Shown here: positions 347-10,109 of the stretch, one piece after another | Numbering within the stretch: position 1 is the stretch's first letter | Layout of the letters: every line of letters starts with the position of its first letter | Origin: a virus | IMG/VR virus record: IMGVR_UViG_3300005536_000004 | Location: 1 to 36,553 of that record | Reading direction: 5' to 3' (one strand) | DNA length: 36,553 nucleotides | Position numbers and translations under genes: made by a program | The notes under the pieces: generated by a model | The model's database searches: none | What the model saw: only the letters and a program-made list of their open reading frames with translations | Told to the model about the DNA's origin: nothing

Positions 347-648
347 GGCTTCCTCGACTCGTAGGCTTCCACCGCCCGGGCCATATCGTCGCACGCTTCG
401 CTTTCCTCTTTGGTGCAGACACCCGTCGCGTGCCACTTCCGCGCCGCATCGACCACTGGGCGCAGCGCGGCGAGTTCCGTGCGGGCGTCGCGGAGCATTG
501 CGAGCAGCCCCAGGAACTCGTTCGGGTGAAGCCGCATCGGCATCGTGCGGAGGTCGGGATTCGCTTCCATCAGGCCACGCGCGTTCGCCTCTAATGCTAT
601 CAACGCCCCGACGCTCACGCGCGGCTCCGCGCTCGGGTGGTCGGTCAC
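343..648 (-). CDS. Hypothetical 101-aa protein, paralogue of its neighbour
   Basis: The function is unknown. The chosen start is GTG at 648-646, which overlaps the TGA of the Erf gene (GTGA). It places the conserved SAEPRVS segment at the N-terminus exactly as in the downstream paralogue, whereas a longer frame would add an unrelated Arg-rich stretch read inside erf. The central segment DARTELAALRPVVDAAR matches DARAELARMRPVVEAAR of the next gene. It ends in ATGA coupling with that gene. Probably a small accessory early protein; helical and soluble. Confidence 0.78.
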   Translation of the reverse strand: MTDHPSAEPRVSVGALIALEANARGLMEANPDLRTMPMRLHPNEFLGLLAMLRDARTELAALRPVVDAARKWHATGVCTKEESEACDDMARAVEAYESRKP

Positions 649-1619
649 GACGCCATCCCCGGCGGCGGCAGGTCGGGCGGTTCGTTGGCAGCTCTCAGCC
701 ATTCGCAGATCGTAGCCCACTGCTCTCCGGTGAACGCTTTCGCCTCCTTCTCGGTGGCGAGCCGCTGGAGGCCGAGAGCCTTGCCGTAGACGGCGAGCCG
801 GTCAGGCCTGTGGGCGGCGTCATTGGCGATACCGTACCGCTCCATGAGCGCGAATGCGCGCTTGCGTTCGGTGGTGGCGTCGAGCGGCTTGGCGGGCTCG
901 GGAGAAGGACGGGGGGCCGGGTCCGACTCCGACGCCCCCGCCTGCCGAGAGGCCGCTACCTGAGTCGGACGGCTAGGCGGCGTCGGCTGGTTCGAGGCGG
1001 GCGGGGCTTCCGTGCCCGCGTCCATCGCCCGCCGCTTGTCGGCAAGGTCCCCGCAGGTCGCACACAGGCCGTCGCCCCTGCCCGCCAGCCGCGTTTCTCC
1101 GCATCGGGGGCAGAATGGGCCAGGCGCCGACGCCCGGCTCTTGCCGCGAGCGCTGGGCAACGCTGGGCGTTTGTCTGTTCCCTCGTCGGCCTCTGGGTCA
1201 TCGCCAGTCGGCATCAGGAACGTCTTGAGCAGGAAGTATTTCAGGGCTCCGGTCATCGCTTTATAGAGCCCCTTGTCGCCCTTGTCCTCGCCAGTTCCAG
1301 CCCATCCGACGGTCATCGTCTCGCCCGTAGCGCCGTCTGTGAACTGAAACTCCATGATGGCCGTCGTGAGCGTGCCTTCGCGCAGGACCTGCTTGATGCT
1401 GGGAACGAGCGAGATGCCGCGCGACGAGAGCGCCCCGCGCACGGCTTCCACGATATCGGCCTCGGTCGCGTAGTCGTACTTGTGGAACTCGTTTCGCCCG
1501 CGCTTGGGCACCCTTGAAACCTCGGCCATGATCTCAGCTAGCTTGGCGTGCAGGCTCGCGGCGGGCGTGCCGTTGCTCGCCTCGACTGGCACTAGGTCCG
1601 TGCTCACTGACGTGCTCAC
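645..1619 (-). CDS. erf: Erf-family ssDNA-annealing recombination protein
   Basis: A single-strand annealing protein of the Erf superfamily, expected to pair complementary strands during phage recombination or circularisation. The Erf core is residues about 25-148: a helical start (KLAEIMAEVSRVPKRGRN), the HKYDYATEADIVEAVR segment, a GTGEDKGDKGLYKAMTGALK segment and the TFLMPTGDDPEAD end. After the core there is a CPRC...CATC zinc-ribbon-like pair (about 170-189), a Pro/Ala linker, and a helical C-terminal domain with an aromatic QWATICEWL helix. The GTG start (1619-1617) overlaps the upstream TGA and has GGGAG just before it; the longer frame to 1706 lacks such support. The VRR-NUC-like nuclease and endonuclease VII encoded elsewhere fit the same recombination role. 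Confidence 0.9.
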   Translation of the reverse strand: MSTSVSTDLVPVEASNGTPAASLHAKLAEIMAEVSRVPKRGRNEFHKYDYATEADIVEAVRGALSSRGISLVPSIKQVLREGTLTTAIMEFQFTDGATGETMTVGWAGTGEDKGDKGLYKAMTGALKYFLLKTFLMPTGDDPEADEGTDKRPALPSARGKSRASAPGPFCPRCGETRLAGRGDGLCATCGDLADKRRAMDAGTEAPPASNQPTPPSRPTQVAASRQAGASESDPAPRPSPEPAKPLDATTERKRAFALMERYGIANDAAHRPDRLAVYGKALGLQRLATEKEAKAFTGEQWATICEWLRAANEPPDLPPPGMAS

Positions 1620-1831
1620 TTGTCTCCCTTCGTTTGCAGTGCCGCTAGTGCGGCCCCACACCACGGGCAAAAACCCATCGGCGGCAGATCGCAGCCGATG
1701 TTCCAATGCGTCACCTGCCCGTCGGGGTATGTGCTCGGATAGATGAGCGCCCCGTACATTTCGTTATCGGTGCCCCATCCGAGCGCGCGAGCAAAGGCGT
1801 CGCAACACGTAGCGTAAACCCGTTCGCTCAT
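1616..1831 (-). CDS. Small cysteine-containing protein (71 aa)
   Basis: Unrecognised. It has a C-P-W-C-G knuckle near residues 55-59 and further cysteines at about 9, 10 and 48, so single zinc binding is plausible. The ATG at 1831 sits in an ATGA junction with the upstream gene and the TGA overlaps the GTG of erf. It is one of several CxxC micro-proteins in this operon and could bind nucleic acid or protein; nothing more specific can be said. Confidence 0.75.
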   Translation of the reverse strand: MSERVYATCCDAFARALGWGTDNEMYGALIYPSTYPDGQVTHWNIGCDLPPMGFCPWCGAALAALQTKGDK

Positions 1832-5058: not shown

Positions 5059-5748
5059 ATGACGGTCGCTGAGGCCTCTGCGTCCCATTCCAGCCTCGCC
5101 CCCGCCGTCTGCGCCTCATGTACCCATCCGCAGACCGCTGAGGCCAACGCCGCGCTCCTGAGAGGCGAGTCCGTTCGATCCATCGCCCGCCGCCTAGAAA
5201 TGTCCATGCCCTCGCTCTATCGCCATGCCCGCGCTTCCCATCATCTCCGAGGCCGTGTCAATCCTGACACACCCCCGGCCGCCCCAACCTCGCAGCCTCC
5301 CGCCACGCCCCTGTCACATGACCAGGATGACCGCGAGGCCGAGATCCTCGTCCGCAACGCCCTGCGCCACCTCAAGCGCGCCATGACCAGCGCCGAGGAC
5401 AAAGACCGCAACGGAGCTATCACCGCCGCGCGCAACGCCCTAGAGCACCGCGCCAAGCTCCGCGGCCGCCTCATCCCAGGCGGAGTCAACGTCACGCTCA
5501 ACAGCCTCACGTCCGTTGCAGTGGCCGAGCGAGAGCAGGCCGCATCTATGAGCGCGTTCGAGGTCACGGAGCAGGCTGGCGCGTGGCTGGGTGCGCAGTT
5601 AGAGGCAGGGAGCGCGGACGCTGTGCGCACGGTGCGAGCGCTGATGCGCATGCTGCCTAGCGCGGAGGTTGCGGCGGGGGATGCGGTGCGCGAAAGCACG
5701 GGCGAGGGGGAGCGCGAGGTCGGGAGCGACGCTGGTGCGCATGAGTGA
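5059..5748 (+). CDS. HTH/zinc-knuckle protein; possible small terminase subunit
   Basis: A 229-residue DNA-binding protein. The N-terminus has C18-x-x-C21-T-H-P, then a helix-turn-helix over about residues 33-62 (LLRGESVRSIARRLEMSM followed by PSLYRHARASH). This Cys-pair plus HTH plus R-H arrangement is common in phage and actinobacterial proteins that recruit DNA. The middle is a helical segment (REAEILVRNALRHLKRAM) and the C-terminal third is helical and acidic. A small-terminase-like role is attractive because no other candidate TerS is present and TerL is encoded 4.4 kb downstream, but a regulator is equally possible. The start ATG has no clear ribosome site. Confidence 0.7.
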   Translation: MTVAEASASHSSLAPAVCASCTHPQTAEANAALLRGESVRSIARRLEMSMPSLYRHARASHHLRGRVNPDTPPAAPTSQPPATPLSHDQDDREAEILVRNALRHLKRAMTSAEDKDRNGAITAARNALEHRAKLRGRLIPGGVNVTLNSLTSVAVAEREQAASMSAFEVTEQAGAWLGAQLEAGSADAVRTVRALMRMLPSAEVAAGDAVRESTGEGEREVGSDAGAHE

Positions 5749-5912: not shown

Positions 5913-5985
5913 TGGTAGCAGGCTCGGGAGTCGAACCCGACTCGCGCTGGCTTATGAGGCCGGGCGAGTCACCGGACCGCCTGCG
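5913..5985 (-). tRNA. tRNA with CAU anticodon (Met/fMet- or Ile2-like), short D-arm
   Basis: On the - strand the 3' half is canonical: a perfect five-pair T-stem around GGGTTCGACTCCC, a TTCGACT T-loop, discriminator A and an encoded CCA. The acceptor arm pairs GCAGGC with GCCTGC over six pairs; the outermost pair is C1-U72, a mismatch. The anticodon loop is CTCATAA on a stem with three G-C pairs next to the loop and one C-A mismatch. Only 15 bases lie between acceptor and anticodon stems, so the D-arm is truncated. The 1-72 mismatch and loop-proximal G-C pairs recall initiator tRNA. Confidence 0.75.
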
Positions 5986-6182: not shown

Positions 6183-6232
6183 AGTCGTGCGATTTGACGA
6201 ATGGCCTCGCCCGTTCCCGCTAGAATCCCATC

Positions 6233-6565
6233 ATGCCCCAACATCGCAAGGCTGTCATGCGTGCTGGTTTGACGCGCCTTCAGTCGGGGCGCTGTGCGAT
6301 CTGCGGTGATCCTCCGGGGAAGCGCGGGCTGCATCTCGACCACGATCACCTGACCGGAATCGTACGCGGACTGCTCTGCCATAGATGCAACTTCGGCATC
6401 GGGCTATTCCGCGATTCCGAGGAACTGCTGATGCGTGCGATCACATACCTCGGCCGTTCGGGATTCTCCGACTACGACATGCTCGCGGCGTGTATCGACC
6501 TCATGGATCAGGTCGAACGAGAGTCTGGGGTGAGGGCGCCGAGGAAGCTGCGGGAGCGAGGCTAG
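6233..6565 (+). CDS. Recombination endonuclease VII (HNH fold)
   Basis: A 110-residue nuclease of the T4 gp49 endonuclease VII family, which cuts Holliday junctions and branched DNA before packaging. The signature is complete: C21-x-x-C24, LHLDHDHLTG (34-42) with the catalytic D-H-D-H core, VRGLLC49-x-x-C52-N53, then a helix IGLFRDSEELLMRAITYLG. A TAGAAT element ends six bases before the ATG and no ribosome site is visible, so the mRNA may be leaderless. Its TAG shares the sequence CTAG with the stop of the leftward micropeptide, so the two converge with no gap. Confidence 0.92.
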   Translation: MPQHRKAVMRAGLTRLQSGRCAICGDPPGKRGLHLDHDHLTGIVRGLLCHRCNFGIGLFRDSEELLMRAITYLGRSGFSDYDMLAACIDLMDQVERESGVRAPRKLRERG

Positions 6566-6636
6566 TGCCAGCTCCGCATGGCGGCGATCAGCGCGGGTCC
6601 GAGCCATATGCACAGGTGCCGGATGATGCGGGTCAT
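6562..6636 (-). CDS. Micropeptide, 24 aa, coupled to the helicase gene
   Basis: ATG 6636 lies in an ATGA overlap with the helicase stop, and TAG at 6562-6564 shares CTAG with the convergent endonuclease stop, so the frame fills this gap exactly. It begins M-T-R-I-I-R-H-L, has a hydrophobic core (CIWLGPALIAAM) and ends R-S-W-H. The micropeptide at 2351-2428 is similar in length, in its M-T-R-(L/I)-(L/I) start, its W-L motif and its S-W end, although it lies in another operon. Function unknown. Confidence 0.6.
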   Translation of the reverse strand: MTRIIRHLCIWLGPALIAAMRSWH

Positions 6637-7823
6637 GGTGCCTCCCTCCAGTCGGGCTCGCGCTCGGCGAACCGTGCGGTGCTCAGGAACGTCAGCGGGA
6701 ACGAGTAGTGCCCGATTCCGTGCCGGTTCTTGCCGACCCCGAGCATGGATTCGTGCTTGGATGGGTTGCGGTGCAGCAGGCATACCAAGTCGGCGACCTC
6801 CTCGATTTCCCCAGCCTCCTTCAAGTCCGCCATGATCGGAAACGCGTTGGGGCCGCGCTGCTCCACCGCCCGCGACAACTGTGCTCCGATCAGCACTGGG
6901 ACCTCCAGGCTCATCGCCAAGGCTTTCAGTTCCCGCACCACCTCACCGACCTGCTCGCGCCGCGTCTGCCAGTAGCGATTAGGCGCTAGAATCTGCACGT
7001 AGTCCACCACGATCAGGGTCGGGCGGTCGCGCAGCATGCGGCAGAACTCGGCCGCCATCGCGGTCACATGGCCCACCGGGGCGCGGCGCGAGGGCGGCTC
7101 CTGAATCCACAGCGCCAGATTGGCCACCTCGCCCGGCCCGCTCGGGAACATGGTCCATAGCCGCCGCCGGATGTCTTTCAGGCTCATCTCCAGCGAGAAC
7201 ATCAGCACCTGCCAGCCCGAGCGCGCCGCCTGGACCGACCAGTCGAGCATCATCGCCGACTTGCCGCCTCCGGGGCGAGCGGCGATCACGTTCAGCGTGC
7301 CGGCCTCGATGTGCGCGTGTTCGTCGAGCGAGGGCAGGCCGGTGCGCACCCGGGGTGCCGCACCGGTCAGTTCGTGCTCGGCCATGATCTCGGCCAGCGA
7401 GCGCATGCCGTCCAGCGGCTGCCGTGGCCCTTCGATGCCGGCGAACCGATCGAGGGCCGCCTTGGCCAGTTCGGCCGGGTCGGCGGATCCGTTCGCCTGC
7501 TCGGCCAGCGTCAGGGCGTGGCGGCGGATCTCTCGCAGTTGCCGCTGGCGCCTGAGCATGGCGGCGTAGGCGGGCAGGTTCTGGGGCGCACAGGCGGACG
7601 AAAGCGCGTTGCCCCAGTCCACCAGCGAGAAGGGAATGCGCTCGGCACGCAGGTTCCAGCGCGCCAGATCCCACGGCCCATCCGCCGTCAGCTCGGCGAT
7701 CGCCTCGTAGGCCGACTTCATGATGCCGCTAAAGTCGGCGCGGTCGAACATCGTCCAACCCTGCCCGCGGTCCCGGAGCAGGGCTCCGATCACGGCTCGT
7801 TCCATCTCGGCTTGCGATGTCAT
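6633..7823 (-). CDS. DnaB-like replicative helicase
   Basis: A 396-residue RecA-fold helicase expected to unwind the phage fork for the host polymerase. An N-terminal helical domain (about 1-130) precedes the ATPase core: Walker A ARPGGGKSA with K188, Walker B LIVVDY (270-275), the LIGAQLSR strand (311-318), DLKEAGEIEEVAD (333-345) and the GVGKNRHG element (362-369). At about 400 residues it is slightly shorter than bacterial DnaB. The ATG at 7823 overlaps the stop of the upstream DUF1376-type gene; a longer start at 7883 would lie within that gene. It is coupled to a 24-residue peptide downstream. Confidence 0.92.
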   Translation of the reverse strand: MTSQAEMERAVIGALLRDRGQGWTMFDRADFSGIMKSAYEAIAELTADGPWDLARWNLRAERIPFSLVDWGNALSSACAPQNLPAYAAMLRRQRQLREIRRHALTLAEQANGSADPAELAKAALDRFAGIEGPRQPLDGMRSLAEIMAEHELTGAAPRVRTGLPSLDEHAHIEAGTLNVIAARPGGGKSAMMLDWSVQAARSGWQVLMFSLEMSLKDIRRRLWTMFPSGPGEVANLALWIQEPPSRRAPVGHVTAMAAEFCRMLRDRPTLIVVDYVQILAPNRYWQTRREQVGEVVRELKALAMSLEVPVLIGAQLSRAVEQRGPNAFPIMADLKEAGEIEEVADLVCLLHRNPSKHESMLGVGKNRHGIGHYSFPLTFLSTARFAEREPDWREAP

Positions 7824-8506
7824 GGCACCCACGCCTCCTCGCTCGCCAGCCCGTCGATTCCCCGGGACTCGGCGCTCTTGCACCAGTTGACGAATGCCCG
7901 GTCAAGGCTCTTGAACGGGTGCTGCTCGTGGTAGGAGATGAGCTTGGCTTCGATCACGGAGAGATCGAGCTTGGGGAATCTGACCTTCATCCGATGCAAG
8001 CAAGCCGCCGTCACGCCGCCGTTGGCGTGGACGGCGGCCTTGCTCGGCAAGGAGCCTGTCTTAGATTCTTCTTCTACGGAAGAGGAAGAGGCAAAGGCAA
8101 GGCTGACACGAAGCGACTCGCTATCCGGTCGCTGTGCGACCGAACCCCAACGCTTGGCGTTGGTTATGCGAGCGCCTTCTGACGCCGATGCTCTTCGACG
8201 CTCCTGCTTCGCACGCTCCAAGACCATTCGTCGCTGAACCAGTACCGGGGTCGCTGAGCGCATCGCTGAGCGAAACGCCGAGCGAATCGCTAGGCGACAG
8301 TGCTGCCAGCGGTCGCGCAGGTCGGACAGCCGGGCGAGTAGTTCGTCGTCGTCAGGAAGCACCCCGCACTCCTCCGCCGACCACGCATGGCAGAGGAGAT
8401 GGACGTAGCCGCCGCGCTGTTCAGGGGTCATCGCTGAGACGATGGAGTCGGAGAGATAGTCTTTCGGATAGAACTGGAACGACGGGGCTCTGTCGTCGGC
8501 TGGCAC
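7820..8506 (-). CDS. DUF1376-type replication accessory protein
   Basis: The N-terminus PSFQFYPKDYLSDSIVS followed by MTPEQRGGYVHLLCHAW is the hallmark of DUF1376 (YdaU-like) proteins, which often sit beside phage helicases and are thought to act in replication initiation or helicase loading. Residues about 60-115 are Arg-rich, followed by a Ser/Glu linker and a C-terminal helical region (FPKLDLSVIEAKLISYHEQHP) that could contact the helicase. The GTG start at 8506 has GAGGGACC upstream. The gene is first in a two- or three-gene replication operon from the promoter at 8656-8683. Confidence 0.85.
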   Translation of the reverse strand: MPADDRAPSFQFYPKDYLSDSIVSAMTPEQRGGYVHLLCHAWSAEECGVLPDDDELLARLSDLRDRWQHCRLAIRSAFRSAMRSATPVLVQRRMVLERAKQERRRASASEGARITNAKRWGSVAQRPDSESLRVSLAFASSSSVEEESKTGSLPSKAAVHANGGVTAACLHRMKVRFPKLDLSVIEAKLISYHEQHPFKSLDRAFVNWCKSAESRGIDGLASEEAWVP

Positions 8507-8601
8507 CTGGGCGGTCCCTCATGGACACTCGGCGTTGCGTTCCCCAGAATCCGGCGGCGTGCTGCCGCGCCAAGGACGAGCGGGCTGGCTTGCTCGGAGG
8601 C

Positions 8602-8652
8602 GGTGTCGGAATCACAGCGAGCACCGCCGGACTCTGGGACGATCCCGACACC
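8602..8652. promoter_or_regulatory. Spaced inverted repeat in the replication operon leader
   Basis: GGTGTCGGAATC (8602-8613) and GATCCCGACACC (8641-8652) are inverted copies agreeing at 11 of 12 positions. The right arm covers the expected transcription start (about 8649) of the leftward replication promoter. The arms are 39 bp apart start to start, so they may be two operator half-sites, or a leader hairpin. Confidence 0.45.
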
Positions 8653-8655
8653 TGC

Positions 8656-8683
8656 AAGATAATCCGATTGCGTCCGCTGTCAA
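8656..8683 (-). promoter_or_regulatory. Leftward promoter of the replication operon
   Basis: On the - strand a consensus TTGACA (8683-8678) is followed after 16 bp by TATCTT (8661-8656). Expected start near 8649, leaving a leader of about 140 bases before the GTG at 8506. It is the best consensus promoter in the window. Confidence 0.7.
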
Positions 8684-8796
8684 GAGGGCGTAGAAAGAAC
8701 TCGCCAGCAAGCGGAGCGTGATGCACGGCGGGCGGTGCTGGCCCCGGACCTCCCCGGCAGAGAGAGCCGCCCGCACCTATCTCCACAGGAGGTCGC

Positions 8797-9135
8797 GTGA
8801 TCCAATGCCCGAAATGCCAGACCACCGACCTCCGCCTCCATAGCGGCGTCTACCGGCTCGATACCCGCCGCCGCTGGCGTCTGTTCGGCCCCCCGATCGT
8901 GGTGCGCACCCTGGTCGGCCATGACTGCTCCTGCCTGCGCTGCCTGTGGGCATTCTCGACCGTTGCCTCCGGCACCATCGACTCGCCCAGCCAGCAGGCG
9001 CACGAAGCCCTCAAGGCGCAGCGCATGAACAGCGATCACAACGGCGAGGACCAGGCCAAGCGCCGCGCCGAGCGCCGACTGCCGCGCATGGATGACGACT
9101 TGGCCGAGGACCCGCGCTATCCGGCCCCTCGGTGA
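8797..9135 (+). CDS. Zinc-ribbon protein opening the late operon (112 aa)
   Basis: GTG at 8797 follows a perfect AGGAGG. The N-terminal half contains C-P-K-C (4-7) and C-S-C-L-R-C (about 45-50), forming a zinc ribbon around a basic beta region (LDTRRRWRLFG). The C-terminal half is a charged helix rich in Arg, Glu and Asp. It may bind DNA or a transcription partner. As the first gene of the long rightward operon it could influence late expression, but that is inference. GTGA coupling leads into the next membrane peptide. Confidence 0.8.
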   Translation: MIQCPKCQTTDLRLHSGVYRLDTRRRWRLFGPPIVVRTLVGHDCSCLRCLWAFSTVASGTIDSPSQQAHEALKAQRMNSDHNGEDQAKRRAERRLPRMDDDLAEDPRYPAPR

Positions 9136-9927: not shown

Positions 9928-10109
9928 TCCGTGCCCGCATCCTCCTCGCCGTTGCCCGCTGGCTGGGCACCCCGCTCTATCTGCGCTGTATGCCGGGATG
10001 GCCCAAGAGTCGGTGGTGGCTCTATTGGTCGCCCGGCCTCGCCCTGATGCCGCTCCCAGACGGCGAGGTGCGCCACTATCGGGGGCTCCAGCAGTCGTTC
10101 CAGCGATGA
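9924..10109 (+). CDS. Small basic, Trp-rich protein before terminase (61 aa)
   Basis: ATG at 9924 and stop at 10109 are both in ATGA overlaps, the latter with terL. The sequence is basic and aromatic (ARWLGTPLYLRC, WPKSRWWLYWSPGLAL), with a hydrophobic amphipathic start. It could be membrane-associated. The family is not recognised. Confidence 0.65.
   Translation: MIRARILLAVARWLGTPLYLRCMPGWPKSRWWLYWSPGLALMPLPDGEVRHYRGLQQSFQR

Follow-up and report, generated by a model that had tools for sequence, protein, structure and literature searches.

The window (the whole 36,553-base stretch of DNA analyzed here, an IMG/VR virus record) carries a tRNA gene whose CAU anticodon raises the question of its role, as such a tRNA may be an initiator, an elongator tRNA-Met, a tRNA-Ile2 or the degenerate remnant of a host gene. 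The functions of phage tRNAs are debated, and the portions of the open-licence literature covered here hold little on initiator-type ones (papers are cited below by PMC number, in each case for the portion covered). A sequence-only reading had proposed that the locus encodes an initiator-like tRNA with a truncated D-arm. We argue, with moderate confidence, that its sequence is that of a functional phage-encoded initiator-type tRNA (tRNA-fMet-like).

The CAU tRNA gene and its genomic setting

The record is probably a complete genome, because an 80-bp direct repeat is present at both of its ends. The tRNA gene that had been recognized from the letters alone was confirmed by ARAGORN, which reports a tRNA-Met(cat) on the minus strand (5985..5913) as the sole tRNA in the window; on 200 dinucleotide-preserving shuffles of the window, the program made three calls in total, none of them with a CAU anticodon. 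In an Rfam scan at threshold, the tRNA was not reported (the RF00005 gathering score was not reached), and under relaxed settings the best family at the locus was tRNA-Sec (RF01852), which scored 22.8 bits where its threshold is 47. This match, and a second one to a tymovirus tRNA-like family, were rejected as sub-threshold resemblances only. A model built from ten tRNAs of other phage and MAG contigs, with the window excluded and with a computed structure that lacks a D stem, scored the window tRNA at 75.2 bits (E 3.8e-18; next best 12.4), a value that is inflated because the model shares anchor letters with the window. Together, the shuffle control and this model search reject a spurious ARAGORN call: the 73-nt CAU tRNA gene is genuine. 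Table 1 lists its parts and neighbors.

Table 1. Coordinates of the tRNA, its structural elements and surrounding features in the window.
Feature	Position	Strand	Basis
tRNA gene, CAU anticodon, 73 nt with encoded CCA	5913..5985	-	ARAGORN; 75.2 bits, E 3.8e-18 against a model that excludes the window (inflated, see text)
Acceptor stem, 5' strand CGCAGGC; C1/U72 unpaired; G2-C71, C3-G70, A4-U69	5979..5985	-	Sequence and comparison
Putative miniature D-arm GGTC-CGGT-GACT; 4-bp stem with outer G.U pair; 4-nt loop containing GG	5967..5978	-	Comparison of short-D CAU tRNAs
Anticodon arm CCGGC-CTCATAA-GCCAG; G29-C41, G30-C40, C31-G39; C28.A42 mismatch	5947..5963	-	Sequence
Anticodon CAU	5954..5956	-	ARAGORN
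T arm TCGGG-TTCGACT-CCCGA	5924..5940	-	Sequence
Acceptor stem, 3' strand GCCTGCT; discriminator A73; encoded CCA	5913..5923	-	Sequence
DnaB helicase	7883..6633	-	
Primosomal-type protein	8506..7820	-	
Erf recombinase	1706..645	-	
Endonuclease VII	6233-6565	+	
ORF, coding by codon statistics	5059-5748	+	
Promoter-like site, 9/12 matches, doubtful	6230..6258	-	Region scan against shuffles

The gene sits in a 484-base gap between the ORF at 5059-5748 and the endonuclease VII gene, on the strand opposite to both. A promoter of its own had been suggested, and the region does contain a promoter-like site that is the sole minus-strand candidate and that exceeds chance, as region shuffles average 0.0; its assignment to the tRNA is doubtful, however, given that 245 nt separate it from the tRNA gene downstream and that it shares bases with the 5' end of the endonuclease VII ORF. 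The region scan found no terminator-like site. The gene list gives 15 GTG and 6 TTG starts among 40 genes, numbers that are inflated because the furthest-upstream start was taken for each gene. Most structural genes scanned between positions 9998 and 32494 have no Pfam or PHROGs family.

Relatives of this phage are scarce in the searches made. The terminase-like protein retrieved one relative only from viral contigs (the 4.4-kb contig L002, 72% identity) and matched no phage record, the capsid protein retrieved no relative, and the tRNA region matched two records of Gordonia phage Mollymur only, over a 79-base piece of an endonuclease VII gene; no relative of the phage that spans the tRNA locus came out of these searches. 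A strict tRNA pattern gave zero matches in viral contigs.

Anatomy of the tRNA

Read directly, the acceptor stem forms six pairs and leaves C1.U72 mismatched, which confirms the non-Watson-Crick end described earlier; the T arm pairs perfectly, and the ACCA end is encoded. The D-arm and anticodon arm are joined by CGC, and the anticodon arm and T arm by CGCGAG. It had also been noted that three G-C pairs flank the CTCATAA loop. That count is correct, but the initiator signature GGG/CCC is absent: because the pair adjoining the anticodon loop is C31-G39, the stem is of the GGC/GCC type rather than the canonical one.

The D region (positions 8-26) is only 15 nt long, as the description of a truncated arm implied, but an arm-less reading is unneeded, since the region can fold into a 4-bp stem capped by CGGU. 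We thus predict a miniature D-arm of four pairs and a CGGU loop, which is the best reading of this region, rather than a truncation. Computed folding places the cloverleaf at about -22.6 kcal/mol and the minimum at -31.7 kcal/mol; because the minimum is a structure with an extended anticodon stem, the cloverleaf is without support from folding energy alone. The tRNA contains two exact 7-nt complements (positions 16-22 and 41-47; window 5939-5970) that could form this long alternative stem. We set the extended stem aside despite its lower energy, because the one tRNA compared by eye, that of contig L067, lacks the complementary segments.

A miniature D-arm recurs in other tRNAs

The D region is no longer than 17 nt in 25 of the CAU tRNAs, and ten of these, the window's included, can form a stem of 4 bp or more closed by a 3-4 nt loop containing GG, as compared to a mean of 0.9 and a maximum of 5 for shuffled D regions; when 3 bp suffice for the stem, 13 of the 25 qualify, and shuffles give 1.9 on average and 8 at most. 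This comparison is not blind, as the miniature arm was defined after examples had been seen. In eleven tRNAs selected because they pair, including two whose stems are 3 bp long, the letters of the D stem vary between contigs while the pairing is kept. Only the L018 and L140 copies among ten other miniature-D tRNAs reach the RF00005 threshold (matched by position), and the miniature D-arm shows that likely real tRNA genes can fall under the standard Rfam threshold. Such arms are not confined to CAU tRNAs, being present in 12 of 678 non-CAU and 7 of 142 CAU tRNAs.

The tRNA most similar to the window's overall is that of L028 (79% identity). The D region most like it by eye belongs to L067, which is absent from the best eight by identity and which has an integrase beside its tRNA (L067:7854-7925 and 8187-8999), so that the tRNA may serve lysogeny in that contig. 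None of 37 window ORFs has a tblastn match in L067, which indicates that similar tRNAs occur in seemingly unrelated phages. Separately, a CAU tRNA-like sequence whose D region is odd, very short or displaced recurs in L011, L014, L019-L021, L034, L035, L039, L042, L046, L050, L053, L060 and L066; it lacks a CCA end, pairs G1 with C72 in one parse, and may be a different element.

The unusual anatomy could also mean that the gene is a degenerate, non-expressed copy or the attachment-site remnant of a host tRNA, which would account for the short D region, the C28.A42 mismatch, the sub-threshold Rfam score and the non-cloverleaf minimum, and which the integrase in L067 and the service of phage tRNAs in lysogeny (PMC10865867) would suit. 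We consider this rather unlikely, as acceptor pairs 2-7, the T arm, the anticodon loop and the CCA end are all intact, other contigs have miniature D-arms as well, and the window ORFs scanned, a subset in which most structural proteins match nothing, gave no integrase.

Initiator-like pairs in viral CAU tRNAs

The acceptor features of the window tRNA are concentrated in viral CAU tRNAs. In ARAGORN calls on viral and phage loci (L003-L174, a pool that includes loci selected for C31-G39 and from which 22 of 826 tRNAs were dropped for poor acceptor pairing), the 1-72 positions are unpaired in 76 of 133 CAU tRNAs and in 21 of 671 other tRNAs (Fisher p 4e-50, relatedness ignored). The pairs G2-C71 and C3-G70, which are formylation determinants, are present together in 87 of 133 CAU and 51 of 671 other tRNAs (Fisher p 4e-46, relatedness again ignored).

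To describe the anticodon stem, we used a sample unconstrained at 31-39, which among the matches listed holds 97 distinct CAU tRNAs, 91 of them usable after six were dropped for poor acceptor pairing. Among these listed matches, 65 of the 91 are mismatched at 1-72, and the mismatched tRNAs carry G-C at 2-71 in 59 cases, C-G at 3-70 in 56 and A73 in 60. The anticodon stems of the same 65 listed tRNAs are G-C at 30-40 in 55 cases and either G-C (34) or A-U (20) at 29-41, whereas the 31-39 pair is G-C in 29, C-G in 15 and U.G in 11; only four have the full GGG/CCC, and 11 have GGC/GCC, the window's type. A second sample, defined by the host-like T-loop TTCAAAT, comprises 100 distinct tRNAs among the matches listed, 89 of them usable (11 of 100 were dropped for poor acceptor pairing, and 3 of 120 loci gave no parse). 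Here, again among the matches listed, 47 of 89 are mismatched at 1-72, with G-C at 30-40 in 44, G-C at 31-39 in 30 and GGG/CCC in 11. When both samples are pooled, the mismatched CAU tRNAs listed have G30-C40 in 99 of 112 cases, G31-C39 in 59 of 112 and GGG/CCC in 15 of 112. Both samples cover tRNAs with the CTCATAA loop and fixed T-arm letters, and the viral contigs may include host tRNAs. At these positions, the sequence of the window tRNA agrees with a class that is widespread among phage tRNAs and shares the same conserved and relaxed sites.

A single CAU tRNA, as in the window, is common in this material: 55 of 84 tRNA-holding viral loci of at least 6 kb in the unconstrained sample have one tRNA only, with CAU, among the matches listed, where the loci are contig pieces chosen for a CAU tRNA. 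ARAGORN also detects CAU tRNAs that are unannotated in the records of Stenotrophomonas phage DLP_6 and Myxococcus phage Mx1 (L004:703-778 and 970-1046; L006:764-833 and 973-1049).

Bacterial CAU tRNAs and the position of G39

Cellular CAU tRNAs provide the reference against which the window's end and stem can be read. In the bacterial stretches L200-L229, all eight initiators have G31-C39 (six GGG/CCC and two AGG/CCT), which indicates that this pair is constrained in cells, and seven of the eight are unpaired at 1-72, two of them with the same C.U mismatch as the window (L207 and L222). Of the remaining bacterial CAU tRNAs, the ten that lack G39 all pair position 1 with 72, and nine of them carry U39, the exception being L225 with C39. 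Ten further CAU tRNAs of this set are G39 copies, and L215 (cut) and L223 (bad parse) were dropped. The initiator-like character proposed earlier is thus borne out by the concentration of the 1-72 mismatch and G2-C71/C3-G70 in viral CAU tRNAs, and by the existence of bacterial initiators with C1.U72.

The same reference bears on the two other decoding roles. An elongator tRNA-Met that supplements AUG decoding would agree with the TTCGA T-loop, which is as in elongators, and with the 246 internal AUG codons of the gene list. However, the window tRNA has C1.U72 and initiator-like 2-71 and 3-70 pairs, whereas the bacterial non-initiators without G39 are uniformly paired at 1-72, and at least 65 phage CAU tRNAs with a TTCGAYT loop are also mismatched there; we regard an elongator as unlikely. 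The sequence-only reading had named tRNA-Ile2, in which a lysidine-modified CAU reads AUA, as another meaning of this anticodon, and CTCATAA loops do occur in bacterial Ile2. This assignment is disfavored by the 1-72 mismatch, by the paired ends and prevalent U39 of the bacterial non-initiators and by the scarcity of AUA (9 of 10,276 codons in the gene list), and is highly improbable.

The G39 of the window tRNA is rare among cellular CAU tRNAs. An anticodon-arm pattern (GCCTCATAAGC) combined with a strong T arm matched 71 viral-contig stretches and 25 stretches in 84,980 genomes, counts that are not normalized. Ten G39-bearing genomes were searched again, and nine have a separate CCC- or CCT-type initiator, G010 having none among the matches listed. 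In 100 genomes of one phylum, position 39 is C in 68, U in 81 and G in one of the 150 matches listed (counted by hand), the single G39 match being the one by which its genome was chosen. Among five genomes of another phylum, G111, which was not chosen for G39, carries a match to CTCATAAGC; G39 is therefore rare but not confined to phages or to chosen genomes. PHROGs searches of the genome stretches with G39 copies found phage-type proteins in L176, L198 and L192, and no match among the proteins tested in L199, L180, L184, L179, L178 and L188. The last of these, a MAG contig labelled Deltaproteobacteria, holds ten tandem CAU tRNA genes and one unclear copy (L188:3682-4561), whose anticodon stems differ between copies and several of which are unpaired at 1-72 by eye.

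Proposed function and the altered 31-39 pair

A functional initiator-type tRNA would act as follows. The CAU anticodon would allow charging by the host methionyl-tRNA synthetase, a weak 1-72 end, together with G2-C71, C3-G70 and A73, would make the charged tRNA a formylation substrate, and the grip of the 30S P site on G29-C41 and G30-C40 would let the tRNA feed translation initiation during infection. In published work, 16S residues A1339 and G1338 contact the 30-40 and 29-41 pairs, G31-C39 is one of three conserved initiator pairs, and formylation is tied to C1-A72 (PMC11497404). Measured against that description, the C1.U72 and C31-G39 of the window tRNA count against an initiator, as do its score below the Rfam threshold, the non-cloverleaf energy minimum and the C.A mismatch in the anticodon stem.

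The swap from G31-C39 to C31-G39 lies outside the two pairs contacted by 16S rRNA and removes the C39 of host initiators. An enteric VapC cleaves tRNA-fMet between A38 and C39 (earlier work cited in PMC4105405), and another VapC acts on tRNA-fMet (PMC8522696). Phage tRNAs have been proposed to evade anticodon nucleases (PMC10264068) and rescue phages from tRNA-targeting defences (PMC11555353); in the case of Shigella VapC-LT2, phages generally avoided encoding tRNA-fMet (PMC10264068), and Shigella phage Sf14 is likewise without it (PMC12482277). A plausible benefit of the swap would be escape from host nucleases that cleave the initiator at A38/C39. Such escape would not be a universal driver, because 31-39 is still G-C in 59 of the 112 mismatched phage CAU tRNAs among the matches listed. 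RNA ligase genes share a stretch with a CAU tRNA in L003 (2971-3048 and 3598-4698, about 0.5 kb apart) and L192 (904-938 and 6350-7489, about 5 kb), which would fit a conflict over tRNA cleavage.

Alternatively, an initiator-type tRNA may add to the initiator supply only, with the 31-39 change and the small D-arm being tolerated drift that is unrelated to nucleases; given an initiator-type tRNA, we put this slightly short of an even chance. As relaxation predicts, the pairs in contact with 16S rRNA, and most of all 30-40, are retained, and the pair without such contact takes many forms (G-C, C-G, U.G or A-U); miniature D-arms are also found in the 12 non-CAU tRNAs counted above. The uniform G31-C39 of the bacterial initiators argues against drift, and the differing anticodon stems of the ten tandem tRNAs in L188 hint at diversification instead. 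A retained 30-40 contact pair beside a free cleavage-site pair fits, as far as sequence can indicate, initiator function with or without nuclease escape. More tentatively, many phage lineages may carry their own class of initiator tRNA, in which the requirements of formylation and the P site are kept and the A38/C39 pair is changed, so that initiation could outlast the destruction of host initiators; the window tRNA would be a miniature-D member of this class that the standard model misses. If loss of GGG/CCC is indeed common among phage initiators, with the pair that 16S rRNA grips most firmly retained, these tRNAs would be natural experiments on the essential features of an initiator, and would offer a direct and cheap test of whether phages protect initiation from anticodon nucleases.

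Comparison with known systems

Neither a relaxed GGG/CCC nor a miniature D-arm was found described for initiator-type tRNAs of phages in the portions of the open-licence literature covered, a scope that leaves most subscription journals outside; what was covered of PMC6293099 and PMC7824862 has no bearing on either feature. Single phage CAU tRNAs, some of them called fMet, are known (PMC12429752 and PMC10747093), and those of Sinorhizobium prophages, in which the CAU tRNA is often the only tRNA of the prophage (PMC12429752), resemble the window's by description.

The window tRNA is like bacterial tRNA-fMet in its CAU within CTCATAA, unpaired 1-72, G2-C71, C3-G70, A73, G29-C41, G30-C40 and encoded CCA. 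It differs in having C31-G39 instead of G31-C39, a 15-nt D region with a 4-nt loop, the C28.A42 mismatch and a T-loop that reads TTCGACT rather than the TTCAAAT of most sampled initiators. Phage CAU tRNAs annotated as tRNA-Met or tRNA-fMet include one in Streptomyces phage Patelgo (gene 123). The second such tRNA of Patelgo has T1.C72 and C31-G39, the latter as in the window, but the D region in Patelgo is of normal length. The 4-nt, GG-containing D-loop is shared with tRNA-Sec (RF01852), from which the window tRNA is distinguished by its CAU anticodon, 4-bp D-stem, 7-bp acceptor stem and lack of a long variable arm. Finally, the tRNA resembles the phage tRNAs for which evasion of anticodon nucleases has been proposed (PMC10264068) in being changed near a nuclease cleavage site; however, the changes there are in the anticodon loops of other tRNAs, whereas here the change is in the stem of what is probably an initiator-type tRNA.
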